From positions 62,001 through 126,000 of the forward strand of contig NZ_JASHJC010000010.1 in the NCBI RefSeq assembly GCF_030733385.1: a stretch of DNA of 64,000 nucleotides, given 5' to 3'. Under the pieces are notes generated by a model, which did not search any database, was not told where the DNA came from, and worked only from the letters and a program-made list of their open reading frames with translations. The position numbers and the translations under genes were made by a program. Shown here in pieces: positions 2,873 through 19,113 of this stretch. Each line of letters opens with the position of its first letter. Position 1 is the first letter of the stretch. The DNA comes from Roseovarius sp. MMSF_3359 (lineage in GTDB: Bacteria; Pseudomonadota; Alphaproteobacteria; Rhodobacterales; Rhodobacteraceae).

Positions 2873-2934
2873 CATTCATGCCCGATTGCACTCTGGAGCA
2901 GAAATTGAGGGACATTGCGGCGAGTGTCAGCAAC

Positions 2935-2975: not shown

Positions 2976-3059
2976 CTCTGGCAAACCGCGCCGCGACGGC
3001 TGAACCGTGTCGTGTAGTCGAATAGACCACGCGTATTCATTTGTGCCGCAGGACGCCAT

Positions 3060-3455: not shown

Positions 3456-3471
3456 ACGGCAGCCTAACACA

Positions 3472-3528
3472 GTCACTTGCAATTATAAAGTCACACCGAT
3501 ATAGAGCGACTTGCATAATGAAAGTGAC
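3472..3528. promoter_or_regulatory. Tandem operator repeats between HxlR and EamA genes
   Basis: 3472-3494 and 3506-3528 are 23-bp direct repeats, each an imperfect palindrome of the form G(T/C)(C/G)ACTT...AAAGT(C/G)AC. They fill the divergent promoter and end just before the exporter start codon, consistent with HxlR dimers repressing both genes. Confidence 0.6.
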
Positions 3529-3534
3529 CGCTAG

Positions 3535-4443
3535 ATGGACGACACCAAACGCACCCTCCTCGCTCATGCCGCTGCCGCAACGGCCGCACTGAGTGCTGGC
3601 ACGGCCGTCGTCGCCACGCGCTTCGTCGTTGGTGACGTCGATCCCATTTCGCTGGCTTTCTGGCGCTACCTGATCGGCTCTGCCTGTTTCCTGCCTGTTC
3701 TTCCGATGCTCTGGCCGTCTCACCGGCTGTCGGTCCGGGACGTGGGGACGATCGCGATCCTAGGCCTGCTTTTCTTTTGCCTCTTCACTTGGGGCTTTAA
3801 CGCCGCGCTCGATGTCATCCCTGCGGCGCGTGGGGCAGTGGGCCTTGCAACCGTGCCGATACAGACGCTGATTGTCGCCGCCCTGTTCGGGCGCGAAGCG
3901 ATGAGTCGGCGCAAAATCGGCGCCGTCGCGCTCGCCTTTGCGGGTGTGGCAGTCGTGTTCGGTCCGTCGGCGTTTGGCGAAGCTCAGGCGGGTGCCTGGC
4001 GGGGCGACGTCTACATGCTCGCAGGTGTCTTCTGCGCTGCACTCTACTCCGTCTTCAGTCGTTCGTCCCTACGCGCGCACGGCCCGCTCTTCGTCACGGC
4101 GCTGGCAATGATGTTTGGTGCAGCGGCACTGCTGGCTCTGTCCCTGTTTACCTCTGGCGGCCCGGACTGGCCGGCACTCGATCCAAGTGGTTGGGCAGCG
4201 CTTGTCTTTCTTGGCACCTTTGCGGGTGCGGTACAGTTCGCACTCTTCACGTGGGCGCTGCGCTGGCTGCCGCCATCAACTGCCGTGATCTATATCGCGC
4301 TCAATCCGATCACTGCCGTCGTCCTCGGAGGCTTCCTATTGGGCGAGGCGATCACGCCACTGTTGCTTCTAGGCCTCGCACTGGTGATGTCAGGAATTGC
4401 ATTAAGCTCAGGAATGCTAGGACGAGGAAGAGCCAGTTCATGA
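3535..4443 (+). CDS. EamA/DMT-family transporter
   Basis: 302 residues with about ten hydrophobic segments in two EamA repeats (residues about 10-150 and 165-298). The PISLAFWRYLIGS signature in the first half and PSTAVIYIALNPITA followed by LLGEAIT in the second are typical of the drug/metabolite exporter superfamily. It would export a small metabolite or toxic compound across the inner membrane; the substrate cannot be read from sequence. No clear Shine-Dalgarno site precedes the ATG. Divergence from an HxlR regulator suggests induction by its substrate. Confidence 0.85.
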   Translation: MDDTKRTLLAHAAAATAALSAGTAVVATRFVVGDVDPISLAFWRYLIGSACFLPVLPMLWPSHRLSVRDVGTIAILGLLFFCLFTWGFNAALDVIPAARGAVGLATVPIQTLIVAALFGREAMSRRKIGAVALAFAGVAVVFGPSAFGEAQAGAWRGDVYMLAGVFCAALYSVFSRSSLRAHGPLFVTALAMMFGAAALLALSLFTSGGPDWPALDPSGWAALVFLGTFAGAVQFALFTWALRWLPPSTAVIYIALNPITAVVLGGFLLGEAITPLLLLGLALVMSGIALSSGMLGRGRASS

Positions 4444-4604
4444 AGGGCGGCGCGGCAATCCTTGTTTCGACTTTCTGAAGCGTCCCGTCAGTCGCAGCCT
4501 AGACGCAAAGCGGACGCCCGTGCTAAGCGCAACGAATTCTTACTTGTCCGCATTGCCGCCATACGACCCGAAGTAACCGACCATTTGCCTCGGATGGCTG
4601 CTTT

Positions 4605-4645
4605 GAGCCCACAATGACCGATGCTGCAGCTTGCACGAATGTCGG
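4605..4645 (+). repeat. Dispersed intergenic repeat, copy 2
   Basis: GAGCCC...GATGCTGC...CGAATGTCGG, roughly three quarters identical to the copy at 2935-2975, in a 290-bp gap with no gene. Confidence 0.5.
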
Positions 4646-4733
4646 GTTACGCTCATTGAAGCGAGGGCTTTCCAATCGACTTATGTTAAAGTTGGTCATA
4701 GCCTTATGAATGCAACTCATAGATGGGCTCGTT

Positions 4734-6584
4734 ATGCTGACTAAACTCGGCCTCAAGAAACAAATGCCACATTTGTCGATTCTGTTAACTGCGACTTTGG
4801 CGTTACTTATCGCCGGTGAAAGTACGACAGCGTGCACCTTCAATCAATCTGGCCCCATGCCCATCTGTGGTAGGCTGACAATCGCGCCTGAAACGGACGT
4901 CATTATTATTGAAAGTCATGACACGGGTGGATTGACGAACGTTTTACTAGGTCCTGAATTGCATTCAGCCGAATACGTCAATGTCGTCATCGGTGAAGTC
5001 CCGAAACCAATCACCATAGTCGTTTCTCACTACAATGCGGCGGTCTTAAACTTCTCGGGAAACGTAGATCAAGTCGATCAAGTCATTGCGATGGGCGCCC
5101 GCAGTTTAGGTTGGGATCATGTTGCGACGACGGGTATCGATGCTCGAAAAGTAAGCTTTCTACCGGTCATTGGTCGAGATAGAAACCTGAACACCAGTTG
5201 TTCGGCTCCACCAAGGTCATGCGTTCCTCAGCAGTATTTTGAACTAACAGATCAAGGGCGGAGCTGGATTGGTGATGTACCCTTGGATCCGCAATATGTC
5301 CGGATGAAGCCCACGATTAAAATAGGGGCCCTAAGACAAGCCTTGGTTAACATACCCCAAGAGCCGGTCCCAGCTGAAGAGCCCGAACAGGTAACCGCTT
5401 CAAAGGTGGAAGAGTTCAAATGGCCGCAGAGTTGGCATGAAGAGGTCGAAAGGTACAACACTTCAACCGATGGCTTTTCGACCTTCACACAAGATCAACT
5501 TGTTTCGCCAACGTCTGTGTCCCTAGATGGAAACCTTCCATCTTGGGCAGGTATACTAGGTCTAATCGAAGATGGTTCCGTCAGACCTGCCGGTGACTAT
5601 GACTCTGACCCAGACCTGATACGGTTTTCCACTGCGTTTAACGAACGTTATCGCACACGTTTTGATCCGGATTTCAGTTTCGAACCCCGCATAGATTTTG
5701 TATTAGGGCACAATTTCAGGGGTGAGATTCCGCGTGACTTGCGCAAGGCAGACAGGACGCCTGTCATCTTTCTAAATAGCTCTCATCGTACTCCCGACCG
5801 AAATGCCGGTGACACCGGCAGATATTGTTTTTTCTCACCAAGTGGACCTCTGGCCCGTACCCGTTCTACAGGTTCATCTCGAAGCGACGGATTTCGATCC
5901 CAGTGCGGTCCTCACTCGCTGGGCCGAACGGATGGTCTTTCGCCATCGCTAGCGTCCTTACAACTGGATGCCGCGGTTAGCTTAGAAAATCATAAGCAAT
6001 GGAACACACAACTGTGTCCTTTGATCGACATACCGTCGGATGCTGAGGTGGTTGTGCTGTCAACGCAGCATGGACGTCTTGGTGACGGAGTACGTTTCAA
6101 GCACTGTGATATAGGAACGTCACAGCAGTCTGTCAGTTCGGGTAGTCCGACTGAAATCCTTGGCGAAGGTTCGGACCAGTGTGAACCTGGCGAAGTAGAT
6201 GTGCAAATAGATCGCAGCGGGCCTATGTTCTTGTTCCTGAAAGGGCGCGGCGCTTTAAAATGGAACTTTGAGGTATCGGGTCAAAGCGAAATTGTTGGCG
6301 TGGTCACAGTGAATGACAGGCGCCAATCCATTGTTGGCCTACCTGAGGGCGTTCCATTTAGTCAGTACGTGCCAGGCGACAGAAGCCTGCCTGATGGCTG
6401 CGGCAACAGTTTGCTGAATGCTAGCCCGATGGCTGGCGGTCCGGCCATTCAATTATTTGAAATGATGCTCAATCAAACTTCTGGGCGCGACATAGACTTG
6501 CTAATCAACAACGGGATATCTCCGGATCAAGATAGCCAAACGCCTGATAGGATTCGCGATTATACAACCTTCGTGGTGAGGTAA
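4734..6584 (+). CDS. Secreted protein of unknown function, possible internal frame disturbance
   Basis: 616 residues that I do not recognise. A signal peptide is likely (hydrophobic stretch SILLTATLALLIAG followed by STTACTF), so it is exported. There are many cysteines and no membrane segment in the mature part. The GC content and codon use are clearly lower than in neighbouring genes, which fits recent transfer. Between 5776 and 5949 this frame becomes Ser/Arg/Gly-rich and poorly protein-like, while the +1 frame is open for 58 codons and reads like normal protein (for example VDLWPVPVLQVHLEATDF). This suggests two compensating indels or a decaying gene. ATGs at 4710 and 4764 are alternative starts. 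Confidence 0.6.
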   Translation: MLTKLGLKKQMPHLSILLTATLALLIAGESTTACTFNQSGPMPICGRLTIAPETDVIIIESHDTGGLTNVLLGPELHSAEYVNVVIGEVPKPITIVVSHYNAAVLNFSGNVDQVDQVIAMGARSLGWDHVATTGIDARKVSFLPVIGRDRNLNTSCSAPPRSCVPQQYFELTDQGRSWIGDVPLDPQYVRMKPTIKIGALRQALVNIPQEPVPAEEPEQVTASKVEEFKWPQSWHEEVERYNTSTDGFSTFTQDQLVSPTSVSLDGNLPSWAGILGLIEDGSVRPAGDYDSDPDLIRFSTAFNERYRTRFDPDFSFEPRIDFVLGHNFRGEIPRDLRKADRTPVIFLNSSHRTPDRNAGDTGRYCFFSPSGPLARTRSTGSSRSDGFRSQCGPHSLGRTDGLSPSLASLQLDAAVSLENHKQWNTQLCPLIDIPSDAEVVVLSTQHGRLGDGVRFKHCDIGTSQQSVSSGSPTEILGEGSDQCEPGEVDVQIDRSGPMFLFLKGRGALKWNFEVSGQSEIVGVVTVNDRRQSIVGLPEGVPFSQYVPGDRSLPDGCGNSLLNASPMAGGPAIQLFEMMLNQTSGRDIDLLINNGISPDQDSQTPDRIRDYTTFVVR

Positions 6585-6832
6585 GGTGCTAGAAACCATG
6601 CACTCCGCGCCGGGACCAGTCATTGGCGCAACTGCAGCGAAAGCTAACTTTGTCCCGCATTGCGGCCATAACTAAGGCCTGAGGCGAAAGACCAGATTGC
6701 GGACAAAGCCGTCATCCGGTCACACGGATGGATTGTCTGCTTTACGGCTGCAACGCGTTACAAAACATCCAGATAGTTAAACACTTTTGAGACGGCTGTT
6801 GATGGTCACAGCAGAACGATATTGGCTCGAGC

Positions 6833-7168
6833 CTACTCCATAGGCATCAGAGCGCGGATGGCATACATACCGTCCTCTCCTTTTTCGAGCACGATAAGGG
6901 CGTCTTGACCTGCCGCCACATCACCAACTTTTGCTTCATCCAACAGCTGAAGATCCATCGTCATCGCGGGCCAGCCGATTTCGGGGATGGGGCCGTGCGA
7001 GAGATTAACCGTTTTGCCTTCTATACTGTTGATTGTGGCTTGCGTTTGCACACCGTCATGCATGGCGTCATGACCAGAATGATCAGCATGGCCGGAATGG
7101 TCTTCGCTTGCGATTGCTGTGGTTGCCAACAGACCGGTCATCATCAGAGGTAAGATTAAGTTGTGCAT
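6833..7168 (-). CDS. cusF: CusF-like periplasmic copper-binding protein
   Basis: 111 residues. A signal peptide (about 1-20) is followed by a His-rich linker (DHSGHADHSGHDAMHDG) and a CusF domain. The Cu(I)/Ag(I) ligands of CusF are present with the right spacing: His58, Trp66, Met69 and Met71 in HGPIPEIGWPAMTMD. CusF-type chaperones hand periplasmic Cu(I) to the CusCBA pump. The ATG at 7168 is chosen because GGAGAG lies 4 nt upstream; an in-frame ATG at 7180 has no such site. It is the last gene of the leftward cusB-cusA-cusF run, 34 nt after cusA. Four more copies of this domain are fused to CusB upstream. Confidence 0.92.
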   Translation of the reverse strand: MHNLILPLMMTGLLATTAIASEDHSGHADHSGHDAMHDGVQTQATINSIEGKTVNLSHGPIPEIGWPAMTMDLQLLDEAKVGDVAAGQDALIVLEKGEDGMYAIRALMPME

Positions 7169-7202
7169 AGAGCTCTCCATTGCGATTGAAAATTGTGATG
7201 GG

Positions 7203-10200
7203 CTATTCGCCCGGGGTGAGGATTGGCTCTTGGGGCGGTGCAGTCGCCATCAGGCGATTTGTTTTTCGCAGGCTGAAGCGTTTCCAGATTACAAAGACTG
7301 CTGGAATGACAAACAGCGTCAGGATCGTAGCGGTGGCCATGCCGCCAATCATCGGGGCGGCGATGCGCTGCATGACTTCTGATCCGGTGCCGGTGCCGTA
7401 CATGATCGGGATCAGCCCGGCAAAGATCGTGGCCACCGTCATCAGCTTTGGCCGCAGCCGCAAAAGCGCGCCCTCAAACACGGCCTCCTCGATGTCTTCC
7501 CTGACCAGCACCCGGCTTTCTTCCTGTGCCGTCTTGACGCGTTTCTCCCAGGCCAGGTTGAGGTAGAGAAGCATCACGATGGCGGTTTCGACAGCCACGC
7601 CCGCCAGGGCGATGAAGCCCACCAATACGGCAACGGAAATCGCAAACCCAAGATACCAGATCAGCCAGACACCACCCGCGAGAGCAACGGGTAAAGCCAG
7701 CAGAATAATTGCGACCTCTGTCACTCTGTTGAACGCCAGGAACAGCATCAGTGTGATGATCAACAGCGTGGCTGGGGCGACAACAGACAGCTTCTCCTGT
7801 ACCCGTTCGATGTATTCATACTGCCCGGACCATGACAGTGCATAACCCGGCGGCAATTCGACGGCTTTGGCCACATGAGCGCGCGCCTCGGTGACGTAAC
7901 CACCCAGATCACGACCTGCGATGTCAATGAAAACAAAGCCCGTGCGCCGCGCGTTTTCAGAACGGATCATGCCCGGCCCATCGACCAGCTTGATCTCCGC
8001 CACTGCCGACAGCGGAATGTGCGCACCCGAGGGTGTGACTATCGGTAGATTGGTCATGCGGTCCGGGCTGTCGCGCCAGTCGCGGGGATAGCGCAGGTTG
8101 ATCGGGAACCTCTCCAACCCTTCGACACTTTCGGCAATCGTTTGGCCGCCAATGGCGGTCTGTACCACCTGCTGAACATCGACAATCGAAAGCGCGTAGC
8201 GGGCGGCAGCGGCCCGATCAATGTCGATCTCGATATAACGCCCGCCTACTGGCCGCTCGGCATAGGCCGAAGTTGTACCGGGTATATCGGTCACGGCCCG
8301 TTCGACAGCGATTGCGATCTCTTCGATCACATCCAGATCGGCCCCGGAAATCTTGACGCCCACAGGGGTTTTGATACCCGTTGCCAGCATGTCGATCCTG
8401 TTTTTGATCGGCTGTATCCAGACATTGGTGACACCGGGCACCTGCACCCGTTGATCAAGCTCGGCCCGGATATCGTCCATGGTGACACCCGGTCGCCATT
8501 CTTCCCGCGGTTTGAGCTGAATGGTCGTTTCGATCATGGTCAGCGGTGCGGGATCGGTGGCCGTGTCCGCGCGCCCCAGCTTGCCATGCACACTCTCGAC
8601 CTCGGGCACTTCGCTGATAAGGCGGTTGGTCTGTTGCAAGACCTCGCGCGCCTTGCCGATGGAAACACCGGGATAAAGCGACGGCATGTAGAGGAAATCG
8701 CCCTCGTTCAATGCGGGCATGAACTCGGTCCCGAGGCGCTGCGCCGGATACCACATAGAGGCCACCAATGCGCCCGCCAGCAGGGTTGTGGCCCAGGGCC
8801 ATGCCACCGCCGCGTCAAGGAAAGGCCGGTACATCCATTGGCAGACCACGTTCAGCGGATTGCGTCGTTCGGCGATGATGCGGCCCCGGATAAAGTACCC
8901 CATCAGCACAGGCACCAGCGTGACAGACAGGATCGCGGCTGCAGCCATGGCATAGGTCTTGGTGAATGCCAGCGGCTTGAACAGGCGGCCTTCCTGCGCC
9001 TCCAGCACGAAGACGGGAACGAAGCTGACCGTGATGATCGCCAGCGAGAAGAAGAGTGCCGGACCAACCTCGGCGGCTGCGTCACCCACCACCTTCCATC
9101 GGTTTTCGCGGGTGATCTCGCCGTCTTCGATCTTCCTGTGCAGGGCCTCGATCATGACAATGGCCGCATCCACCATGGCCCCGATGGCAATGGCGATCCC
9201 ACCTAGGGACATGATGTTGGCATTTACCCCCTGCAGGCGCATCACAACAAACGCCGCCAAAACGCCAAGCGGTAGGAACAGCACGATCACCAGCGACGAA
9301 CGCAGATGCAGGAGGAACGCGCCGCAGACCAGAATGACAACGATGAATTCTTCGGTGAGCTTCTTTTGCAGGTTCTCAATCGCCCGCTCGATCACACCGG
9401 AGCGATCATAGGTGGTGACGATCTCAACGCCCTCGGGCAATGAGCCACGCAATTCGCCCAGCTTTTTTTCAACCGCTTGGATCGTGGTCAGGGCATTTTC
9501 GCCCCAACGCATGATCACGACGGCTCCGACGGCATCCCCTTCACCGTCAAACTCACCCACGCCACGGCGCATCTCGGGGCCAAGGCGGATTTCCGCGACA
9601 TCGCCAAGGGTCAGCGCCGCGCCGCGTTCGTTGACCATCAGGGGAATGGCGGCCAGATCGTCCAGCCCGTCCACATAACCGGTGGCGCGGACCATATATT
9701 CGGCCTCGGCCATTTCGATGACACTGCCGCCGGTTTCGCGGTTGGCCATTTCAATGGCGGACAAAAGCTTGGAGAGCGGGATATCAAAGGCGCGCAACTT
9801 ATTTGGATCAACGACGATCTGGTATTGCTTGACCATGCCACCGATAGTGGCCACTTCGGACACCCCGTTGATGGTCTGCAACTCGAACTTCAAAAACCAA
9901 TCCTGAATGGCCCTGAGTTGCGACAGATCATGCCCACCGGTGCGGTCGATCAGGGCATATTGATAAATCCAGCCGACGCCGGTCGCGTCCGGCCCCAGTT
10001 CGGGGTTCACACCTGCGGGAAGCCGGGATTGCACCTGCGCGAGATATTCCAGGACCCGCGACCGCGCCCAATAAAGATCGGTGCCGTCTTCGAACACCAC
10101 ATAGACATAGCTGTCTCCGAAGAAGGAAAAGCCACGCACATCCACAGCACCGGGAACCGCCAGCATCGCGGTGGCGATGGGATAGGTCACCTGATCCTCC

Positions 10201-10382
10201 ACCACTTGCGGCGCTTGCCCGGCATAGGGCGTTTTGACGATAACCTGCACATCGGACAGATCGGGGATGGCATCGACGGGCGTGGTGCGCGCCGCCCACA
10301 GGCCCGCAGCCCCCAGCATGAAGGCCAGAACGACAACGACAAAACGGTTGGCAATTGACCACCGGATAAGCGCGGCGATCAT
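7203..10382 (-). CDS. cusA: Copper/silver efflux RND transporter permease
   Basis: 1059 residues, the usual length of heavy-metal RND pumps. The N-terminus is the transmembrane segment typical of RND permeases, and the HME signature GAMVDAAIVMIE lies near residue 400. Methionines in FLYMPSLYPG, DPAPLTMIETT and NRIDMLATG correspond to the Cu(I)-binding methionines of CusA, which favours copper/silver over zinc/cobalt. It exports periplasmic or cytosolic Cu(I) through the envelope by proton antiport. It overlaps the end of cusB by 4 nt (ATGA), so the two are translationally coupled. No outer-membrane factor (cusC) gene is in the cluster, so an unlinked TolC-like protein must be used. Confidence 0.93.
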   Translation of the reverse strand: MIAALIRWSIANRFVVVVLAFMLGAAGLWAARTTPVDAIPDLSDVQVIVKTPYAGQAPQVVEDQVTYPIATAMLAVPGAVDVRGFSFFGDSYVYVVFEDGTDLYWARSRVLEYLAQVQSRLPAGVNPELGPDATGVGWIYQYALIDRTGGHDLSQLRAIQDWFLKFELQTINGVSEVATIGGMVKQYQIVVDPNKLRAFDIPLSKLLSAIEMANRETGGSVIEMAEAEYMVRATGYVDGLDDLAAIPLMVNERGAALTLGDVAEIRLGPEMRRGVGEFDGEGDAVGAVVIMRWGENALTTIQAVEKKLGELRGSLPEGVEIVTTYDRSGVIERAIENLQKKLTEEFIVVILVCGAFLLHLRSSLVIVLFLPLGVLAAFVVMRLQGVNANIMSLGGIAIAIGAMVDAAIVMIEALHRKIEDGEITRENRWKVVGDAAAEVGPALFFSLAIITVSFVPVFVLEAQEGRLFKPLAFTKTYAMAAAAILSVTLVPVLMGYFIRGRIIAERRNPLNVVCQWMYRPFLDAAVAWPWATTLLAGALVASMWYPAQRLGTEFMPALNEGDFLYMPSLYPGVSIGKAREVLQQTNRLISEVPEVESVHGKLGRADTATDPAPLTMIETTIQLKPREEWRPGVTMDDIRAELDQRVQVPGVTNVWIQPIKNRIDMLATGIKTPVGVKISGADLDVIEEIAIAVERAVTDIPGTTSAYAERPVGGRYIEIDIDRAAAARYALSIVDVQQVVQTAIGGQTIAESVEGLERFPINLRYPRDWRDSPDRMTNLPIVTPSGAHIPLSAVAEIKLVDGPGMIRSENARRTGFVFIDIAGRDLGGYVTEARAHVAKAVELPPGYALSWSGQYEYIERVQEKLSVVAPATLLIITLMLFLAFNRVTEVAIILLALPVALAGGVWLIWYLGFAISVAVLVGFIALAGVAVETAIVMLLYLNLAWEKRVKTAQEESRVLVREDIEEAVFEGALLRLRPKLMTVATIFAGLIPIMYGTGTGSEVMQRIAAPMIGGMATATILTLFVIPAVFVIWKRFSLRKTNRLMATAPPQEPILTPGE

Positions 10383-12571
10383 GATCCGCCCTCCGCCACG
10401 CCCCGCAGGGTAAGCGACATATCTGATCCTTGCGTGAGCAGAAGGCCTGTTTCCTCACCCAGCGGCAGCGAAGCTGGATCCAGAGCGTCGTCCAGAGGGA
10501 AATCCATGGTCATCCCCGGCATACCGATTTCGGCGATTGGCCCATGCGTGACATTTGCCACGCCTGCGTCCGTGTCGATGCTGTTGACGGTGCCCGTGAC
10601 TTTCATCGGCTTGGCCATGGTCTCAAAAGACGTCAAGATCATCGTCATCCCATCAGGGCGTGCAAAAGTCAGAGACAGGTCTTGATCCAGCGGCAGATTG
10701 GCCGGATCAACATCATCGGCCAGATCAAAGGCCATCATCATGCCCGGCATACCGATCTCGACAATCGGACCATGGGCGATCATCGCTTGGCGCGCCTCGG
10801 CATCGACGGACTGGATTACGCCATCCACCACTATGGGCGGCGCGATGGCCTTCCTCTCCATTTCAGGCACCGGCTCCTTTTCCATCATCGCGGGTGCGTC
10901 TTCGGCACGCACGCCGACGACGACGTAAAGCCCGTCCTCTCCCTGGGCCAGATCGAATTCCACATTGGTTTCCAGCGGAATGTCAGCCGTATCCAGACCG
11001 GCCACGTCCATGTCCATCTGCATGGCCGGCCAGCCAAGCGCCGGGATTGGGTCGTGGCTGATGCTGAGCTTTCCATCATGCGTGATGGCGTGGACCATTC
11101 CCATACCGGTGGCATCCACGCCGTCATCCCGACCCAGGGCACTGATCGCCAATAGGCCGTCGGCCCCCCGGAAAACCTTGAACTTCACGTCGTCGCCCTG
11201 GGACAGATCATCAAGATAGACGTCCGAGCGAATGGCAAATTCCGTCTCAAGCGCGGGCCAGTCCAACGCTGGGATCGCATCATGCCGGATCGTGGCACTT
11301 CGGCTTTCGGGATCAAAGGCCGTCAGAACACCTTTGGCATCCACCGGCTCTGCCTCTGTGGGGGCGAAGCGCAGCATCCCGGCGTTCAATGCACTCTCGC
11401 TGTCGATCAGGAACTGAGCCGAGGCGACCACCTCATCGCCCGGGGCAAGACCCTGTTCGATGACTGTGCGGCCTCCGGCGCCGAAACCATCGCGCAGACC
11501 TGTGGTGACAAGGCGCGGGCGGAACACCCCGTCGCCGGTCCTCAGGATCACGCGTTCAGCCCGACCAGTACGGATCACGGCCTCAGAGGGGACGGTCAGC
11601 GCCTCACGTGTCGCGCGCGGGAGAAGGTCGACATTGGCAAACATGTTGGGTTTGAGTATGCCCTCGGCATTGTCGAACCGCAGGCGCACCCGTAGCGTTC
11701 GCGTCATGGCGTCCAACTCCGGGAAGATATAGTCGATCTCTCCGGTGAATATTCGGCCCGGAATATGCTCGAACCTGGCTTCGGCCATCATATCTGCTGA
11801 AAGCCGCCCAATATCTCGCTCGAACACATCGACGAGCAGCCACACAGACGACAAGTCGCCCAGCGACATCGCTTGAGTGTTCGGGTGCAGATACATCCCG
11901 TCCGCAGCCGTCAAATCGATCACCACGCCATCCTGCGGGGCGTAGTACCTGATGCGCTTTTCTGGAATAGAGGCCTCTGCCATTTCGGCGATCTGACGAT
12001 CACTAACCCCAAAATTCTGCAGTTTGGACCGGGCGATGTTGATCTCATCTGCATCCTTGCGCTTGACCGCGCGGATGAGTTCGGAGCTGGCGACGGTAAT
12101 TTCCGGTGCGTAGAGGTCAAAGAGCAACTCACCTTGTGCAACCGGATCGCCCTCGGCGCGCACTTCTAGCCGTTCGATCCAGCCTTCTACGCGGGTATGG
12201 ATATGGCTGGTCGCGTGTTCGTCGTAGCCAACAAAACCCACCGTTTCGATCCGTTGCGCCACATCCTGCACGCGCGCCACGGCGGTGCGTACGCCAATGG
12301 TGTTCACCTCGGCCGCACTCAGGCTCACATCCTCCGGGTCGCCCGATGGTTCATCCCCTTCATAAACCGGCACCAAGTCCATCCCCATCGGAGATTTGCC
12401 GGGACCGTCCTTGCGGAAATTCGGGTCCATTGGAGCTACCCAATAGAGGATTTCTGGCCCAGCTCCGTCAGCGCTCATCGCCATGGCGCCGCGTTCCCGT
12501 TCGTACCAGACCCCGCCTGCGATGCCTGCACCAAGGGCTAAAATTGTCAGCGCAACATATCTTCCACGCAT
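10379..12571 (-). CDS. cusB: CusB-type RND adaptor with four C-terminal CusF-like modules
   Basis: 730 residues, far longer than a normal CusB. After an N-terminal membrane anchor there is a heavy-metal-binding segment (YWVAPMDP...GKSPMGMDLVPVYEG) and the barrel-sandwich/helical-hairpin adaptor (about 80-400). Then come four tandem CusF-like modules at about 414-480, 491-557, 584-650 and 660-725. Module 2 keeps His, Trp, Met, Met (HDPIPALGWPAMQM). Modules 3 and 4 replace Trp with Met (GMPGMMM, GMPGMTM). Module 1 keeps His and Trp but has Leu and Thr in place of the two Met. It links CusA to the outer-membrane channel and probably buffers or feeds Cu(I). The start at 12571 has a GGAC site upstream; 12616 is an alternative. 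Confidence 0.92.
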   Translation of the reverse strand: MRGRYVALTILALGAGIAGGVWYERERGAMAMSADGAGPEILYWVAPMDPNFRKDGPGKSPMGMDLVPVYEGDEPSGDPEDVSLSAAEVNTIGVRTAVARVQDVAQRIETVGFVGYDEHATSHIHTRVEGWIERLEVRAEGDPVAQGELLFDLYAPEITVASSELIRAVKRKDADEINIARSKLQNFGVSDRQIAEMAEASIPEKRIRYYAPQDGVVIDLTAADGMYLHPNTQAMSLGDLSSVWLLVDVFERDIGRLSADMMAEARFEHIPGRIFTGEIDYIFPELDAMTRTLRVRLRFDNAEGILKPNMFANVDLLPRATREALTVPSEAVIRTGRAERVILRTGDGVFRPRLVTTGLRDGFGAGGRTVIEQGLAPGDEVVASAQFLIDSESALNAGMLRFAPTEAEPVDAKGVLTAFDPESRSATIRHDAIPALDWPALETEFAIRSDVYLDDLSQGDDVKFKVFRGADGLLAISALGRDDGVDATGMGMVHAITHDGKLSISHDPIPALGWPAMQMDMDVAGLDTADIPLETNVEFDLAQGEDGLYVVVGVRAEDAPAMMEKEPVPEMERKAIAPPIVVDGVIQSVDAEARQAMIAHGPIVEIGMPGMMMAFDLADDVDPANLPLDQDLSLTFARPDGMTMILTSFETMAKPMKVTGTVNSIDTDAGVANVTHGPIAEIGMPGMTMDFPLDDALDPASLPLGEETGLLLTQGSDMSLTLRGVAEGGS

Positions 12572-12659
12572 GTTTTCGTCCTGTCTTTGACGCGCGGTCA
12601 TAGAGGGACCGCGCAAAGAAAGCCCGAGCGATCAGTCGCAGGGGCTGCTTGTCAGAAGA

Positions 12660-13025
12660 TCAGGTGTGTTTTGGAGGCTTCTTGGCGCTCTCAGGTTCTG
12701 CCTTGGTCAAATGCAGATCGACCGAAGGAGTATGTTGGCACGTGATGGCATCGGTCATTGCAGGAACGGATGGCGTTGCGATCCCGCCTATGTGACAGCA
12801 GGCGATCATTGGGCAACTTGCATGGCCGTCATGCGCCGTGCCGTGATCCGCAGAGGACATATCATGATCGGCATGATCCATATCGGCGTGACCCGAATGA
12901 TCCATCATCGGAGCATCCAGAGTCATCGCGGTATGAGCCTGTGCCATACCGAGGCCACTCAGTGAAATACCGAGAATAACAGCAAGCAGACTTGCCTGAA
13001 CGATGAGCCATCTCATAAGACGCAT
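12660..13025 (-). CDS. His/Met-rich exported metal-binding protein of the copper operon
   Basis: 121 residues: a signal peptide or membrane anchor (MRWLIVQASLLAVILGISLS), then a His/Met/Asp-rich region (MMDHSGHADMDHADHDMSS) and two cysteine clusters (CPMIACCH). It ends in KKPPKHT. Small proteins of this sort head copper operons and are thought to bind copper in the periplasm; I cannot assign a named family. It is the first gene of the leftward copper operon, 88 nt before cusB. The ATG at 13025 has a GAAGG site upstream; earlier residues from 13067 are unlikely to be translated. Confidence 0.75.
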   Translation of the reverse strand: MRLMRWLIVQASLLAVILGISLSGLGMAQAHTAMTLDAPMMDHSGHADMDHADHDMSSADHGTAHDGHASCPMIACCHIGGIATPSVPAMTDAITCQHTPSVDLHLTKAEPESAKKPPKHT

Positions 13026-13143
13026 GCCGCCTTCATAGCCAGAATCCGCGCTCTTACCAAGCGGCAACTCATCACCTGCGGCAAGATTTCCTACACATTG
13101 CTGTGAGTGCCAATGTTCGGATCACTGCACAAAAAAGTCAGGA

Positions 13144-13174
13144 TTGACATTCCCCTTGCTGGAACGTTTAGCGT
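13144..13174 (+). promoter_or_regulatory. CueR/MerR-type copper promoter upstream of copC
   Basis: The -35 box TTGACA (13144-13149) and -10 box TAGCGT (13169-13174) are 19 bp apart, the stretched spacing used by MerR-family activators. The spacer contains the dyad ACATTCC-N7-GGAACGT, close to known CueR operators. It points rightward to copCD, starting about 70 nt ahead of copC. No cueR gene is in the window. Confidence 0.75.
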
Positions 13175-13243
13175 AAATTTCCGAACGCGTATCTATCTCT
13201 CGCGCGTTTGCAAAAAACAAACAAAAATCCGTGAGGGCAGACC

Positions 13244-13585
13244 ATGAAATACCTGTTCGCATTCATCGTTATAATGCTCAATCCTTTAGGGGCCTTGGCG
13301 CACTCCGACATGCAGAAAACGACCCCGGAAAACGGTTCTGTTCTGAACCAAGTGCCTATTGAGATCGGACTGAACTTTACCGACAGGCTGCGCTTGACCG
13401 CCGTCAAAGCACGTCATTCCGATGGTGAAACACAAGCCATCGACCTTGGCGATCACAAAGGTTTTGAGGCGGAGTTCATGTTGCCCATGCAGCCAATGGG
13501 CACAGGTGTTTACGAGGTGGAATGGCGCGGGCTGGGAATGGACGGGCACGCCATGCAAGGCACATTCAGCTTCGAGGTCGAATAA
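13244..13585 (+). CDS. copC: Copper resistance protein CopC
   Basis: 113 residues. The signal peptide ends in GALA, leaving a mature N-terminal His (HSDMQKTTPENGSVL), the Cu(II) ligand of CopC proteins; the second His is in the conserved C-terminal GLGMDGHAMQGTFSF. The fold is the small CopC beta-sandwich, at normal length. It binds periplasmic Cu(II) and works with CopD. The gene is the first of a two-gene rightward operon under a CueR-type promoter and is divergent from the cus operon. Confidence 0.92.
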   Translation: MKYLFAFIVIMLNPLGALAHSDMQKTTPENGSVLNQVPIEIGLNFTDRLRLTAVKARHSDGETQAIDLGDHKGFEAEFMLPMQPMGTGVYEVEWRGLGMDGHAMQGTFSFEVE

Positions 13586-13588
13586 CCC

Positions 13589-14461
13589 GTGCCCGATATC
13601 TGGGCGCTCGCGGCAGTCGTCAGCAAGACCCTTTTGTATTTCGGGGTGTTGACCAGCAGCGGCCTGATACTAACCCGTTTCGTCTTTGCCTCCGAAGTCG
13701 CCGCTGTTTTGCCAGTCATGCGAAAATATGCGGTGCTTTGGACAGTGCTGGCTATCGCTGCAGCACTTGCCAGCTTTGCCCTGCGCGGTGCCGCTCTGAC
13801 CGGCGATGCGTCCGGCCTGACCGATCCCGAAATGCTGGGTTTGATGTGGCAAACGCCCGTCGGCACCGCCCTTCTTCTCAGGGTCATTGGGTTGAGCCTA
13901 ATGCTGACCGGGCTCCTGGTGGGTGGGCTTGGCTGGGCGGCGGCGGGATTGGGTGCGCTGACGGCACTTTGGTCCTTCATCACAATTGGACATCTTTCGG
14001 ACGATATTGGCCTCTGGGCAAAACTTGTGTTGCTGACACACCTATTGGCGGTAGCCTTCTGGATCGGCATTTTGCTTCCGTTGAACCGATTGACCAGAAC
14101 CACCGGCGACACGGTGTTGGCAGCCCGGCTCGGTCACCGCTTCGGACAAATTGCAACCGTAATCATCTCAGGTCTGATCGCGGCAGGCCTCGTTCTGGGC
14201 TGGTTGCTGATCGGTTCCTGGACGCATCTGTTCACCACAGCCTATGGCCTCAATATCATCGCGAAACTATGCCTGGTCGCAGGGCTATTGGGACTGGGGG
14301 CGTTGAACAAACTGCGCGTTGTTCCCGAATTGACTTCCGGAAACGCTCAGGCTGCGATTCATCTCTCAAAAACCGTATCAATGGAATGGTTGGTGTTCGT
14401 AGCCGTATTGCTAGCGACTGCCTCTTTGACAACGCTATTTGCGCTGCCTGGAAAGCCGTGA
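13589..14461 (+). CDS. copD: Copper resistance protein CopD
   Basis: 290 residues, an integral membrane protein with about eight hydrophobic segments and conserved His in THLLAVAFWIGILLPLNRL, as in CopD/YcnJ proteins. It is thought to move copper across the inner membrane together with CopC. It begins with GTG at 13589, 3 nt after the copC stop, so it is co-transcribed and probably translationally coupled. It is the last copper gene of the island before the mobility module. Confidence 0.88.
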   Translation: MPDIWALAAVVSKTLLYFGVLTSSGLILTRFVFASEVAAVLPVMRKYAVLWTVLAIAAALASFALRGAALTGDASGLTDPEMLGLMWQTPVGTALLLRVIGLSLMLTGLLVGGLGWAAAGLGALTALWSFITIGHLSDDIGLWAKLVLLTHLLAVAFWIGILLPLNRLTRTTGDTVLAARLGHRFGQIATVIISGLIAAGLVLGWLLIGSWTHLFTTAYGLNIIAKLCLVAGLLGLGALNKLRVVPELTSGNAQAAIHLSKTVSMEWLVFVAVLLATASLTTLFALPGKP

Positions 14462-14485
14462 CAGCCTAACCAAAAACCACATTTT

Positions 14486-14526
14486 CAGACATTCGTGCCG
14501 ATCGCAGCATCTGCTAGACTGGGCTC
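14486..14526 (-). repeat. Dispersed intergenic repeat, copy 3 (inverted)
   Basis: The reverse complement reads GAGCCC...GATGCTGC...GCACGAATGTCTG. It is preceded on the plus strand by aaaaccacatttt, also seen before copy 4. Confidence 0.45.
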
Positions 14527-14623
14527 CAACCCGTAATTCGACGCGTTAAAAATCAACGTCGGCAATGCTCTTAGAGACCCTCAGCTATAACGGATGTCGT
14601 CAGGAACTCGATCCGATCTGACA

Positions 14624-14650
14624 CATTGTGTGGTGTAATTTGTGGTATTC
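14624..14650 (-). repeat. Arm-type repeat, internal inverted copy
   Basis: The reverse complement has ATACCACA and ACACCACA 12 nt apart and ends CAATG. It matches the left-end copy at 20 of 27 positions. Confidence 0.5.
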
Positions 14651-14662
14651 AAAGCTATAGGT

Positions 14663-14694
14663 TATAATATATTATATAAATTCAATATATTATA
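14663..14694. repeat. AT-only palindrome
   Basis: TATAATATAT (14663-14672) and its exact complement (14685-14694) flank a 12-nt spacer, inside about 50 bp with almost no G or C. It could be a melting or protein-binding site. Confidence 0.5.
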
Positions 14695-14925
14695 TCTATA
14701 ATATTGCGGACACTATATCCGCCTACCAGCATTCCAACAGCATATTTCGGGTTAATGATCGTTCATCAAGCCACTGTCGACAACATTGCTATTTCTTCTA
14801 ACTGTTTGTGGGTTGCAAGGTTGCAGTAGTGGCTGACAATTATCGTTTTACTTGTCTGACCAAAGTATTGCTTTCACGAATTGAAGGCACAGAGATTCGG
14901 GCAGATAGGCCATGGGAATCTGAGA

Positions 14926-15957
14926 TTAACCTGCTCGGGTCCTGCCGAGCTTTCTAATCAGCTCCCTTTGCCGTTCCCTTGAGATAGGCAAGTACGATCC
15001 GACCGTGATGATTTCCCTAGAATGACCAACGTTCTGGCTGAACGCTTTGAACTCTTCACGGGTGGCGCAAATCTTGTCGACATAGAGCGACAGCGTCTTG
15101 CGGAAGCTGTGGGGTGTGAACTCGTGAAGTCCAGCAGTCTTGAACGCGGCTCGAATGATGGCGTTGATCTTTTGGCCGTTGCAGTAGGGTTCGCGAGATA
15201 AATCGGCGAAGTTGAAGCGTCCGTTTTTCAACGTCCGGTCTGGCTTGGGAAAGACCGCATCGCCCGGACCGAACAGTTTTTCCTCGCGCAGGTAAGTGAT
15301 CCAGGACGCGAACGTGTCGAGATACATCTCATCGACTGGAAGGAACCAGGTTTCGATGGTCTTCCCGTTCTTGGTATCAACCTCGCGTCCGTCCTGGAAG
15401 ATATAACCTTCCACGAGATCAACATGAGCGAGGCGCAGCGATGCTAAAGCACTGTCGCGCGCCGCGGTCAGCATCAACAAGGCAAAGATCGCCTTGTCAC
15501 GTCTCTGCCGTTCCGTGTCTTCGGGCATCAGGCGGAACGCATGTGCGCATTGCTCCATAGACGGATACGCAATTGGGCGCGCCGCATGCGCAGCGCGGGC
15601 GTCCTTTGCGTTGTTGTTGAAGTAGTCGACATCATCATACGAGATACGCGACTTGAAGCCCGGGCGGCCTGCCAGCCATTTGAAGAAGGCTTTGACAGTG
15701 CGAAGGCGCGCATCCCGCGTGGTCAGGCTGAGTGGATCGCCAGTGCGGTGGTTCCGACACTTTTCCAGGTGCGTCTTGTATTTCCGCCCCCAATCGCGGT
15801 GGAAGGATTTGAAGTGTTTTAGATTCAGCGCCATTTCAAAGTCGCGCAGGCTGGCAGCAACTTGGTCGAGTGTCTTTTCGTCCTTGCCGTCTGCCTCGCG
15901 GAGGTAGGTGAGGTATTGGCGTTTCAGACGTTCGTTTTCCGCGTTTACTTGGGCCAT
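14926..15957 (-). CDS. Tyrosine recombinase/integrase (island)
   Basis: 343 residues. The N-terminal SAM-like DNA-binding domain covers about 1-125 and the catalytic domain about 140-335. Catalytic motifs are Arg in TAARDSALASL, HSFRKT, GHSREIITVGSY with the Tyr nucleophile near the C-terminus. It is unrelated in sequence to the P4-like integrase 1.7 kb to the right. It would cut and rejoin DNA at a specific site; its own target is not known. It is the last gene of a leftward set and is followed by the AT-rich palindrome and an arm-type repeat. Confidence 0.85.
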   Translation of the reverse strand: MAQVNAENERLKRQYLTYLREADGKDEKTLDQVAASLRDFEMALNLKHFKSFHRDWGRKYKTHLEKCRNHRTGDPLSLTTRDARLRTVKAFFKWLAGRPGFKSRISYDDVDYFNNNAKDARAAHAARPIAYPSMEQCAHAFRLMPEDTERQRRDKAIFALLMLTAARDSALASLRLAHVDLVEGYIFQDGREVDTKNGKTIETWFLPVDEMYLDTFASWITYLREEKLFGPGDAVFPKPDRTLKNGRFNFADLSREPYCNGQKINAIIRAAFKTAGLHEFTPHSFRKTLSLYVDKICATREEFKAFSQNVGHSREIITVGSYLPISRERQRELIRKLGRTRAG

Positions 15958-16055
15958 GTGTCAGGTTCCCTCATGAAGTGATGGTTTAAGGCAGGGTTCA
16001 CAGGTTCGATTAGTCGTACCGACTGTGCCTTTTTTCAGACTGGGGGGATGGCGTG

Positions 16056-16424
16056 TCATGCAGCACTCACAAACCGCGTGCAGGGGCGCTCGCAGACGTT
16101 GCAGAAGGCCCTAAGCATTGGCCTGCCATCTGAGGTCGTCGTGCGTTCTGTCAGCCCGAGAGCGGGTGTGCGTGGGGCCTTGCAGCCCGTGCAGTAGAAC
16201 TCACCTGGTTTCAGGGGTTGTTTGCGGGCCGCTTCCCGTTCCTTCAGGAAGGCTTTGAGCTGCCAACCCAGTATCAGGTAGGGCCGCTGCTCGGTCAGTG
16301 CGGGCAAACCGTCCTTGATCCACTGCCTAACGGTTTGCGGTGATACACCAAGAAGCTCGGCCACTTCTTCAATCACGTAGCTTCGATGCGCCTTGATCCT
16401 GTTGATGTTGTAGAACCGACCCAT
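16056..16424 (-). CDS. Small HTH plus zinc-ribbon protein
   Basis: 122 residues. The N-terminal half has a helix-turn-helix (VIEEVAELLGVSPQTVRQWIK), like MerR/excisionase proteins. The C-terminal half has two CxxC pairs (CTGCKAP and CNVCERP), indicating a zinc ribbon. It overlaps the preceding small HTH gene by ATGA. It may be a recombination directionality factor or an island regulator; its role is inferred from context only. Confidence 0.7.
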   Translation of the reverse strand: MGRFYNINRIKAHRSYVIEEVAELLGVSPQTVRQWIKDGLPALTEQRPYLILGWQLKAFLKEREAARKQPLKPGEFYCTGCKAPRTPALGLTERTTTSDGRPMLRAFCNVCERPCTRFVSAA

Positions 16425-16636
16425 CAGCCCCGCGCCTCAGCAGTGGGGTCAACCCGGTTGCCGTCGGCCCAGGCGTTCAGATCCGCGCCGCGATAGATGA
16501 TCTTGCGCCCCAGCTTGTAGTAGGCGGGACCTATGCCCTTGTGACGCCACTGTGCCAGCTTCGCCCGGTCGCCGATCAAATTAAGTTCCGGATCACCCGG
16601 AAGGTAGTTTCGGTTCTGCTCGAATAAGGTCGCCAT
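16424..16636 (-). CDS. AlpA/excisionase-like small DNA-binding protein
   Basis: 70 residues with a single helix-turn-helix of the kind in AlpA and phage excisionases (LAQWRHKGIGPAYYKLGRKIIYR followed by LNAWA). Proteins like this accompany tyrosine integrases and control excision or integrase expression. Its stop overlaps the start of the next gene (ATGA), so the pair is co-translated and leads toward the 343-residue recombinase. Confidence 0.78.
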   Translation of the reverse strand: MATLFEQNRNYLPGDPELNLIGDRAKLAQWRHKGIGPAYYKLGRKIIYRGADLNAWADGNRVDPTAEARG

Positions 16637-16723
16637 GTTCCAATCCTTTGTTGTTGGACTGGAACTGTTGGAACACGTCTAATTGGATTAGAAAAAATAC
16701 AGTATCGCGATTGCAGTAAGGTC

Positions 16724-17557
16724 TTAGCTCTTAGTGCTTTCACCCAGTGAACCGAGTAATCCGCCTATTAGACCCATCGGACGATTGCTGGTGCGTCCAG
16801 ACTCCATCATCTGGGCAAGCGAGTTGACCAATGGCTTCAGATCATCGTCAGTGACTTGCGCAACGGCATATTCGCCATGAGTTCTTACACCGGCTTTGAT
16901 CTTCAGGAGCTTGAACGTTTTCTTGAGCGCTCGACTGTATGACGTTGAGGGATCACCCGTTATGGCCGCTGTGCCGTAACCAGGTCGTTGTCCTACTTCT
17001 TTTGCAAAGAGCTTCGCAAGCCTGATCGCAATTACGCGGGCGTAGTAGTCCGGCGCTCTATGGTTGATGTTCCAAAACTTTTCTTCTTGGTCAATTAATT
17101 CTTGTTGCCGCGCTTCCAACGCAGTCCAAAGCTCCAGCAAAACAAAGAGCGATGTGTTGTATCCGCCTGTTTCAGCAACGTTCTTGAGAGCAAGGCTTCT
17201 TGCATCCTCTATCTCTGAACGAGACGCCTGACTTCTTAGTTTCTGATCGATTACTGGTCGCAAGCGATCCACCAAGATACCTTGATCCGGTATGACCTTG
17301 TCCGGCGCCAACAAGTGAACCGTAGCGCGGAGGTTTTCGACGCACGCTTTGACTGCTTTTTGCTCGTATTGAAATTCGGCTTTGCTATCGTGCGCGTTTG
17401 GCTTGGTAATGTCGATTGGCGGAATTGGCGGTGCAAGAGCGTTCATGTTTGGTTGCCTAGGACTACGTTTTCCAAACGGCTCGAGCATTTCGTCAACGAT
17501 TGCATGTAGCTGCTCGCTGATCTCGTACTGAGTTAACTCATCGGATTTTGCTTGCAT
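16724..17557 (-). CDS. Hypothetical island protein
   Basis: 277 residues, not recognised. It is soluble and mainly helical with long charged stretches, and the C-terminal tail is Gly/Ser-rich (LIGGLLGSLGES). Codon use is less GC-rich than in core genes. It lies between the two recombinase genes, 105 nt after the P4-like integrase stop, and is likely island cargo or a mobility accessory. No defence, toxin or replication motif could be recognised. Confidence 0.65.
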   Translation of the reverse strand: MQAKSDELTQYEISEQLHAIVDEMLEPFGKRSPRQPNMNALAPPIPPIDITKPNAHDSKAEFQYEQKAVKACVENLRATVHLLAPDKVIPDQGILVDRLRPVIDQKLRSQASRSEIEDARSLALKNVAETGGYNTSLFVLLELWTALEARQQELIDQEEKFWNINHRAPDYYARVIAIRLAKLFAKEVGQRPGYGTAAITGDPSTSYSRALKKTFKLLKIKAGVRTHGEYAVAQVTDDDLKPLVNSLAQMMESGRTSNRPMGLIGGLLGSLGESTKS

Positions 17558-17662
17558 TAAGGTAAGATGGTGGCGACCTTACTGTATTACAAGATAGCGC
17601 AGTGGATTGCGTTCGATTTAGCTTGGTTGGCAAGAAGGTTGTCGCAAGCCTGCCTTTCTGTA

Positions 17663-18874
17663 TTAACTTTTTTCCTTTTTCGGCAAAGAAATCACCTTCG
17701 CCTCCGCATCAGCCACAAAATTCGACCACCGTTCCATGAGTGCGCGGCGTTTTTCGAGCAGGTCAGACCGCGCATAGGCCTGCTCGACCTGTGATCCGAT
17801 TCGATGTGAGAGGCTCATTTCAGCCACTTCGCGCGGGGCATTGGCGACTTCGGACGCCCAGACACGGAAGGTCGAGCGGAAGCCGTGCACCGTGACGCCC
17901 TCGATCTTCATTCGGCGTAAGAGCATCAGCATGGACATGTTCGACAGCGGCTGGTGGCGCTTCTGGCCCTCGAAGACATAGTCAGAGTGCATCGCCTTGA
18001 GCGGCTCGATGATCTCCAGCATTTCCCGGGTGAGCGGCACGCGGTGTTCTTCGCCGGTCTTCATCCGCTCCGCCGGACAGGTCCAGACACAGTCCTCGAA
18101 GTCAATCTCGTCCCACGTCATGCCCAGCACCTCGCCCGTACGTGAACCCGTCAGGCAGGTGAACATCAGGGCCTTTGCCGCCATGGCATTACGACTGCGC
18201 AGATCCGCGTAGAAGGCCGGGACATCGCGCCAGTCCATGGCCTTGTGGTGCTTCACCTTCTTCTTGACCTTCGGCAGCACTCCCGCGTCTTTGATCGCTG
18301 TGACCGGGTTCTCGCCCTCGCGGAAGCCTTTGGCCCGCGCCACATCCAGCACCGTCTTGATCCGTTGCATCAGCCGCCGGGCGGTCTCGTGCTTTTCAGT
18401 CCAGATCGGCGATAGGCACATCAGGACTTCTGGCTGACCAATGCTGTCCAGCGGCATGCGCCCGATCTTGGGGAAGGCATAGTCGCGCAGCGTATTGATC
18501 CATTGCTGGCCGTGCTTGGGATTGCTCCAGGTCGGCAGCCGGTCGATATGCACTTGCTGGGCGAACTCTTCGAATGTCGGGATTTCCTGCTTCATGTTGT
18601 AGCGCGGGTTCAGCCCCTGCTTCGCCATGCGGCGATACTCCAGCGCCCGCTCACGCGCCATGTTGAGCGTCACCACATCCGCGCCGCCCAGGCCATAATC
18701 CGTGCGCATAGGTTTGCCGTTGCGATTGCGCTGTCCCTTGACCGTCACCCGCACGATCCAGCGCCGCGCCCCCGAGGAATCGACCACCAGATAAAGCCCG
18801 CCGCCATCCCCGTGTCGCCCCGGTCCGAGATTCTCAACCAGCTTCTTCGTCAGCTTTCCGGACAGTGTCGCCAT
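17663..18874 (-). CDS. P4-like tyrosine integrase beside tRNA-Ser
   Basis: 403 residues, the usual length of P4-family integrases. The N-terminal DUF4102-type arm-binding domain (about 1-90: GDGGGLYLVVDSSGARRW) is followed by a core-binding domain and the catalytic domain with Arg in TGSRTGEVLGM, HGFRSTF and LSHRIGSQVEQAYAR carrying the Tyr. It lies 150 bp from the tRNA 3' end and transcribes away from it. It very likely inserted the island into tRNA-Ser. One copy of the 27-bp arm-type repeat lies 4 nt upstream of its start codon, so the integrase may also regulate itself. Confidence 0.93.
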   Translation of the reverse strand: MATLSGKLTKKLVENLGPGRHGDGGGLYLVVDSSGARRWIVRVTVKGQRNRNGKPMRTDYGLGGADVVTLNMARERALEYRRMAKQGLNPRYNMKQEIPTFEEFAQQVHIDRLPTWSNPKHGQQWINTLRDYAFPKIGRMPLDSIGQPEVLMCLSPIWTEKHETARRLMQRIKTVLDVARAKGFREGENPVTAIKDAGVLPKVKKKVKHHKAMDWRDVPAFYADLRSRNAMAAKALMFTCLTGSRTGEVLGMTWDEIDFEDCVWTCPAERMKTGEEHRVPLTREMLEIIEPLKAMHSDYVFEGQKRHQPLSNMSMLMLLRRMKIEGVTVHGFRSTFRVWASEVANAPREVAEMSLSHRIGSQVEQAYARSDLLEKRRALMERWSNFVADAEAKVISLPKKEKS

Positions 18875-18877
18875 GAA

Positions 18878-18904
18878 TTATACCACATTCCATACCACCC
18901 AATG
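18878..18904 (+). repeat. Arm-type repeat, right copy
   Basis: ATACCACA and ATACCACC are 12 nt apart and the element ends CAATG. It matches 2846-2872 at 21 of 27 positions in the same orientation and lies between the integrase start and the attR core. Confidence 0.6.
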
Positions 18905-19022
18905 AACGAATATGGACATCATCGAAAAGAATTCAAGAGAAGAATGTTCACCGGATTTCGCCATAAATATATAGTTTACACCGCGCTTAATGCCGTTCAA
19001 ACAAACTAAGGGAAAAGGTAAA

Positions 19023-19037
19023 GTGGCGGAGCGACAG
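19023..19037 (+). repeat. attR core within the tRNA-Ser 3' end
   Basis: Identical to 2771-2785. The crossover kept the tRNA gene intact on the right side of the island. Confidence 0.75.
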
Positions 19038-19113
19038 GGATTCGAACCCTGGAGACGGTCTCCCGCCTACACACTTTCCAGGCGTGCGCCTTCGACCACT
19101 CGGCCACCGCTCC
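19024..19113 (-). tRNA. tRNA-Ser (anticodon GGA)
   Basis: A 90-nt class II cloverleaf on the minus strand: acceptor GGAGCGG, D arm, anticodon stem CACGC/GTGTG around CTGGAAA (anticodon GGA, reads UCC/UCU), a long variable arm, T arm CAGGGTTCGAATCCCTG, discriminator G and encoded CCA. It is the integration target of the island to its left. Confidence 0.97.

Follow-up and report, generated by a model that had tools for sequence, protein, structure and literature searches.

Why would the adaptor of a Cus-type copper pump carry four CusF-type domains on its own chain, and why would the metal sites of these domains differ? The question is raised by a cusB-like gene in the 64,000-nucleotide stretch of Roseovarius sp. 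MMSF_3359 DNA analyzed here (the window). The sequence-only reading of this DNA had described a CusB adaptor with four tandem CusF-type domains and a separately encoded free CusF, and had proposed that the domains form an array of copper sites that differ in affinity or state specificity. We examined the gene and its operon, the conservation of the ligand sets among relatives, and the neighbors and descent of stand-alone CusF proteins.

Operon and architecture of the adaptor

The genes are arranged in the order cusB-cusA-cusF on the minus strand, with the 3' end of cusB overlapping cusA by four bases, and copC and copD lie upstream of cusB on the opposite strand (Table 1). A plus-strand reading of 10379-12571 was rejected, because stops interrupt the plus frame and the minus frame ends with its sole stop. 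The nearest named relatives are from Roseovarius; the host is a marine bacterium. The CusA protein aligned with E. coli CusA at 1310 bits and scored over the cut-off of the CusA/CzcA model TIGR00914. Its Met-containing motifs are conserved, as judged against the residues that we take to be the ligand Met of E. coli CusA, and with these motifs the locus belongs to the Cus-type RND efflux systems. It has no cusC gene of its own. No OEP was found on the window's contig, and the OEP matches of the genome sit on four other contigs. Likewise, no OEP was annotated in the shown flanks of nine alphaproteobacterial plasmid relatives, for which PLSDB annotation is incomplete and one flank (L161) is short; a single-query channel search was too weak, as it overlooked an annotated TolC in L151. 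The locus therefore encodes a Cus-type pump but no dedicated channel, and the pump may borrow a channel from elsewhere.

Table 1. Features of the locus (positions in the window)
Feature	Position	Strand	Remarks
Free CusF, 115 aa, HWMM site	6833..7180	minus	Pfam
cusA, RND permease, 1059 aa	7203..10382	minus	Pfam, E. coli CusA match, TIGR00914
cusB-like gene, 730 aa	10379..12571	minus	hydrophobic N-terminal segment, HMBD, adaptor body, four CusF modules
CusF module M4, residues 654-726	10394..10612	minus	site H676-M684-M687-M689 (HMMM)
CusF module M3, residues 578-652	10616..10840	minus	site H600-M608-M611-M613 (HMMM, Met for Trp)
M2-M3 linker, residues 558-577, variable, low-confidence	10841..10900	minus	pLDDT <50 at 558-575
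CusF module M2, residues 484-557	10901..11122	minus	site H506-W514-M517-M519 (HWMM)
CusF module M1, residues 407-481	11129..11353	minus	site H430-W438-L441-T443 (HWLT)
N-terminal heavy-metal-binding segment, residues 43-69	12365..12445	minus	Pfam HMBD, E. coli CusB alignment
Small His/Met-rich protein, upstream of cusB	12660..13067	minus	weak DUF2946 match, below Pfam cut-off
copC	13244..13585	plus	Pfam CopC
copD	13589..14461	plus	Pfam CopD

In the adaptor, Pfam recognized the HMBD segment, HlyD_D23 at residues 104-312 (5.3e-69), and four CusF_Ec stretches, with a whole-protein value of 8.6e-61. Alignment with E. coli CusB covered only residues 17-402 (147 bits), implying that the C-terminal extension of approximately 330 residues is real. 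The protein scored over the cut-off of the adaptor model TIGR01730 (120 vs 94.9) and fell short of that of the CusB subfamily model NF007303 (164 vs 390); its CusB/HlyD-type body places it among the CusB and RND heavy-metal adaptors. Met 48, 62, and 64 of the HMBD segment are invariant in 23 sequences, and the stretch that contains them aligns with the Met-containing N-terminus of E. coli CusB, in which M21, M36, and M38 are reported ligands (PMC6235853). By our own reading of this alignment, the two sets of Met residues probably correspond, and the adaptor is predicted to retain the N-terminal Met site of CusB-type adaptors.

We set the limits of modules M1 to M4 from the Pfam stretches and an AlphaFold model. 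Each module singly exceeded the Pfam CusF_Ec cut-off in the genome search, at 47-60 bits. An AlphaFold run on the full-length protein with 22 homologues modeled the adaptor body poorly (mean pLDDT 61.8, pTM 0.27). The C-terminal 327 residues alone gave a mean pLDDT of 83.6 and a pTM of 0.37, and formed four barrels, each five-stranded; the two pTM values imply that the relative placing of the modules is unsure. In VIA-align searches with the C-terminal model, CusF matched M1 (Z 13.5), SilF matched M3 and M4 (Z 11.8 and 10.9), and SilB (2l55) matched M1 (Z 11.1). M2 had no separate CusF row, as only the best place is shown for each chain, and rows with Z below approximately 8, which were other OB folds, were not taken as relatives. 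By profile and five-stranded barrel, all four modules are CusF_Ec domains. The coordinates and domain count of the sequence-only reading were thus right, and no module was modeled apart from a metal-binding fold.

The sites read in the sequence also agree with most of what had been claimed: only M2 has the classic His/Trp/Met/Met set, M3 and M4 have Met in place of Trp, and the free CusF is present with an HWMM site. A full four-ligand site is found in M2, M3, and M4 and is lacking in M1, which has the CusF fold but a modified site. All four modules are acidic (net charge -6 to -11), as are residues 25-80 (-6).

Ligand sets, selection, and distribution among relatives

Adaptor frames were taken from loci up to L166, leaving out sub-clips of other loci and loci chosen by the CusF_Ec profile (L001-L006, L111, L113-L148), and removal of copies at 95% identity reduced them from 102 to 93. 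These frames contain no module (14 frames), one (12), two (19), three (4), four (40), or five (4). The four- and five-module adaptors, 44 in total, include the window's own, one truncated at the edge of the analyzed stretch (L112), and one from a broken gene (L165). In these 44 adaptors, M2 is always HWMM and modules 3 to 5 are always HMMM (92/92), including the fifth module in all four proteins that have one. The M1 site is HWMS in 28, HWMT in 11, HWLT in 4, and HWTS in 1. As read from these sequences, the ligand sets form an ordered pattern that is conserved by module position. The earlier claim that one module has lost both Met residues holds for M1 of the window, for three other Roseovarius-type adaptors with HWLT, and for the single HWTS adaptor, but does not hold as a rule. 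The first Met of M1 is kept in 39 of 44, implying that loss of both is special to a few; it is the position of the last Met that is Ser or Thr throughout (44/44).

Three of the four three-module adaptors show this order, and among these three, L166 has a shortened adaptor part; the fourth, from a Salinimonas plasmid, reads HWMM-HWMM-RRAL. One of the 19 two-module adaptors (L097) is an array protein truncated by a contig end. The first module of the other 18 is HWMM without exception, and the second is short of ligands in 14 (seven RRA-type and seven -WG- type) and HWMM in four. These 18 fall outside the array class, and the named ones are from gammaproteobacteria. Free CusF proteins encoded in array operons carry HWMM in 24/24 listed cases, and so does the one in the window.

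Conservation of the sites was assessed in 23 full-length sequences, where variation among the 16 ligand positions is confined to the two Met positions of M1 and the other 14 are invariant. Against a background of 66 invariant positions among 327, the hypergeometric probability is 5e-9, and it is 5e-4 when only the four 16-residue motifs are considered, which rules out a chance motif; apart from the two Met positions of M1, the His and Met residues predicted at these positions are conserved. We also calculated dN/dS for the window's gene against each of five relatives. Values for the modules ranged from 0.06 to 0.31 (18 of 20 defined), and those for the M2-M3 linker were higher, at 0.25 to 1.21 (4 of 5 defined). 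The two near comparisons weigh most, because the three more distant ones approach saturation at synonymous sites. Against these two nearest relatives, M1 gave 0.10 and 0.23, which implies that M1 is altered, not decaying. Together with the constant Ser/Thr, these values disfavor M1 as a dead copy.

In a draw of 345 genomes from the family, 16 matched at E <= 1e-60, counting the window's genome; 15 of these matches were near full length and one (G074) was broken. A phylum draw of 398 genomes gave 126 matches, many through the adaptor part only. In a 199-genome phylum draw, PF11604 occurred in 63 genomes. A tally by hand of frames of at least 480 residues (n=31), in which Pfam can miss weak modules and from which a stand-alone 623-residue frame of G398 was left out, counted one CusF module in 19, two in 8, three in none, and four in 4. 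All four of the latter are alphaproteobacterial, with the window's own included. Plasmid-borne arrays were also found in Rhodovulum, Labrenzia, Ruegeria, Phaeobacter, Dinoroseobacter, and Roseobacter, the last with five modules, and this recurrence in many separate assemblies and plasmids rules out an assembly artefact. Among loci spanning 9 kb or more with at least three modules in the adaptor, all 27 encode CusA (broken in L165), 24 encode a free CusF, and two have an oxidase nearby. A DNA pattern for the HMMM motif, which fails to catch the stand-alone HMMM type, matched in 5 of 385 alphaproteobacterial genomes; those in L111 and L115, where the match contained no recognized CusF domain, were taken as chance.

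Neighbors and descent of the two site types

Stand-alone CusF domains were collected from the 199-genome phylum draw with flanks of approximately 6-7 kb per side, shorter at contig ends. The collection includes the second CusF of the window's genome; of the rows that represent an array operon's free CusF, two (G000 and G115) were left out and a third (G398) was counted. Ten of the 62 domains, of neither site type, were set aside, and neighbors within 6 kb were called by single protein queries at E 1e-8. A multicopper oxidase accompanied 24 of the 28 Met-type (HMMM) domains, two of which share one locus; a CusA-like pump accompanied two, and two had neither. By contrast, 16 of the 24 Trp-type (HWMM) domains had an RND pump nearby, one had both, one had an oxidase, and six had neither. 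Site type and neighbor were associated in the single-context cases (Fisher 9e-9, kinship not removed), and the counts without G000 and G398 were similar (Met-type 23, 2, and 2; Trp-type 15, 1, 1, and 6, in the same order). The rule is not strict, because G565, G443, and G405 encode single-module adaptors, not of the array lineage, that carry HMMM beside RND genes. Elsewhere in the window's genome, OEP, multicopper oxidase, and cupredoxin-CusF (HMMM) genes are consecutive, and a two-component system lies nearby. HMMM proteins are common among Pfam CusF_Ec, and the Trp-to-Met change itself is not unusual.

A quick tree of 110 domains, including those of 14 array proteins and calculated with the Trp/Met column removed, placed free CusF, M1, M2, and M3-5 each in one group, the three array classes each being confined to one side of a starred branch. 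Sixteen stand-alone HMMM rows also formed one group (80% support), which implies that the link between HMMM and oxidases is perhaps one inherited association. Four groupings were then forced, joining M3-5 with stand-alone HMMM, M3-5 with M2, M1 with M2, or all array modules. All four beat the free tree in likelihood, with AU p values of 0.67 (M3-5 with stand-alone HMMM) to 0.94, and one and two origins of the Trp-to-Met change are therefore indistinguishable.

Proposed tethered chaperones at the pump and alternative readings

The components of this adaptor have precedents. As in SilB of Cupriavidus metallidurans CH34 (PDB 2l55), a CusB adaptor and a C-terminal CusF lie in one chain, which makes this protein a SilB-type fusion, and a metal-chaperone role is reported for the CusF-like domain of SilB (PMC4446572). 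Unlike SilB, which has one domain, the proteins described here have four or five, with three site types in a fixed order. Gammaproteobacterial CusB-CusF gene fusions, reported in 22 organisms (PMC3548706), similarly join both proteins in one gene; the fusions outside the array lineage have one or two modules, or three in the Salinimonas case, and none of those in the 93-frame set has an HMMM module. The array shares its fold, its CusA and CusB families, and the HWMM site of M2 and the free CusF with E. coli CusCFBA, in which CusF is a separate protein and cusC is part of the set. The HWMM and HMMM motifs were named previously (PMC5552934, citing Kim et al. 2010 for HMMM). Stand-alone HMMM CusF proteins share all four ligands with M3 and M4, but are separate proteins, mostly in multicopper oxidase operons, and differ in the sequence near the site. 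We found no four- or five-module adaptors and no fixed order in the literature searched, which was mostly without subscription papers. Single CusB-CusF fusions and both site types are known; the multi-module array of fixed order appears new within this literature.

We propose, with a probability of roughly 0.6, that the protein, as the adaptor of a Cus-type Cu(I)/Ag(I) RND pump, has Cu(I) chaperones tethered to it that take up copper and deliver it to CusA. In these bacteria, a line for handling copper seems to have become part of the pump itself. With six adaptors per CusA trimer, as in the reported CusA3-CusB6-CusC3 ratio (PMC3548706), each pump would hold approximately 24 CusF modules, raising the local capture capacity. 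Replacement of the CusF Trp by Met is reported in a review to raise Cu(I) affinity (PMC7558416), and by analogy M1 to M4 may differ in affinity. The part of the sequence-only reading that called the sites an array of different make-up within the adaptor is supported by the fold, the position-fixed site types, and the low dN/dS; the grading of affinity would follow from this analogy, and the proposed state specificity is not supported by the results. M3 and M4, at the outer end of a flexible tail, might have the higher affinity for Cu(I) and collect it in the periplasm. M2, whose site type matches that of the pump's soluble CusF, might swap Cu(I) with the N-terminal Met site of CusB and hence supply CusA; such exchange between CusF and the N-terminal part of CusB is reported to pass through a shared-ligand intermediate (PMC6235853). 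M1, adjoining the adaptor body, could be a weak or transit site, a gate, or a structural spacer. E. coli CusF is reported to be electropositive and to dock on a negative CusB N-terminus (PMC7558416); docking must differ here, because the modules and residues 25-80 are all acidic. Retention of the free CusF implies that tethering has not replaced the soluble chaperone. A further argument against the proposal is that tightest sites placed outermost would not alone drive copper inward.

A more specific form of this proposal is an ordered relay, in which HMMM capture outermost would be followed by Trp-capped HWMM exchange and a Ser/Thr-altered gate near the pump, joining the oxidase-linked Met type and the pump-linked Trp type in a system without a dedicated channel gene. 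We regard this form as tentative and somewhat unlikely to hold as a whole. It is also unlikely, in our estimate, that the modules chiefly buffer or store copper at the pump, with no set order of hand-over and with site types that reflect descent instead of grading. Such a store would account for the varying number of modules (four in 40 adaptors, five in 4, and three in the three array-like proteins) and for the HMMM site of every fifth module, as a capacity trait would predict, and the reportedly tighter HMMM site (PMC7558416) fits holding; plain capacity, however, does not need M1 and M2 to stay different, as they do in 44/44.

The neighbors of stand-alone CusF suggest another arrangement, in which the HMMM modules work for a Cu(I) oxidase branch and the HWMM module for the pump, linking efflux with oxidation. 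The 24/28 and 16/24 associations and the OEP, oxidase, and cupredoxin-CusF (HMMM) row of the same genome are consistent with this. We nevertheless consider it improbable: an oxidase is nearby at just 2 of the 27 array-type loci, the three HMMM adaptors outside the lineage sit with RND genes, and the associations include kinship, with the 16 stand-alone HMMM rows in one group and a shared origin with the array HMMM modules left undecided by the tree (AU p 0.67). Finally, the extra modules might be by-products of duplication with little function, as M1 is short of one or two canonical ligands and the second module is ligand-poor in 14/18 two-module adaptors outside the lineage. The constancy of each site class in 44/44 and a dN/dS of no more than 0.31 in every module where it was defined make this decay very improbable.

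What the Trp cap does in CusF is, by published accounts, incompletely understood (PMC6235853; PMC7558416). Because one chain has Trp, Met, and Ser/Thr-altered forms in constant order, evolution has set up a comparison of the Trp cap. Single or swapped modules could reveal the purpose of the cap and whether the order of sites matters in hand-over. Moreover, pairing of the Trp type with pumps and of the Met type with copper oxidases would be a simple, testable rule for the whole protein family.

Surroundings of the copper cluster

The copper genes of the window appear to be part of an island that holds two integrase genes and is bounded by a 15-base direct repeat of the end of a tRNA-Ser gene (Table). 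In a close relative (G014), a cusB 92% identical to that of the window is located on a different contig from the matching tRNA-Ser gene. A 624-residue ORF adjoins the copper genes, and no Pfam match to it was found.

Coordinates of features in the window and in compared loci
Feature	Sequence	Position
Apparent island	window	2771-19037
Direct repeat	window	2771 and 19023
624-residue ORF	window	4710-6584
Integrase gene	window	14926-15957
Integrase gene	window	17663-18874
tRNA-Ser	window	19024-19113
Second copper locus	L159	5253-12785
Broken cusB (CusA frames beyond)	L165	5953-8130
Shortened adaptor	L166	5506-7107

Other copper loci and plasmid relatives

Another contig of Roseovarius sp. MMSF_3359 (L159) carries a second copper locus, which encodes an OEP, a multicopper oxidase, a two-component system, and a cupredoxin-CusF fusion with an HMMM site. 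Among plasmid relatives, cusB and cusA of the Leisingera locus (L165) are broken into several frames. The adaptor of the Sulfitobacter locus (L166) is shortened, carries three modules (HWMS, HWMM, and HMMM) and is followed by a full-length CusA and next by an IS5 transposase; no free CusF was found in this stretch.

Two-module CusB proteins

Seven two-module CusB proteins of the phylum (L053, L055, L056, L057, L060, L063, and L066) have lost ligands from the second CusF module, with the same changes throughout (His to Arg, Trp to Arg, and first Met to Ala). This ligand-less module is perhaps a docking module.
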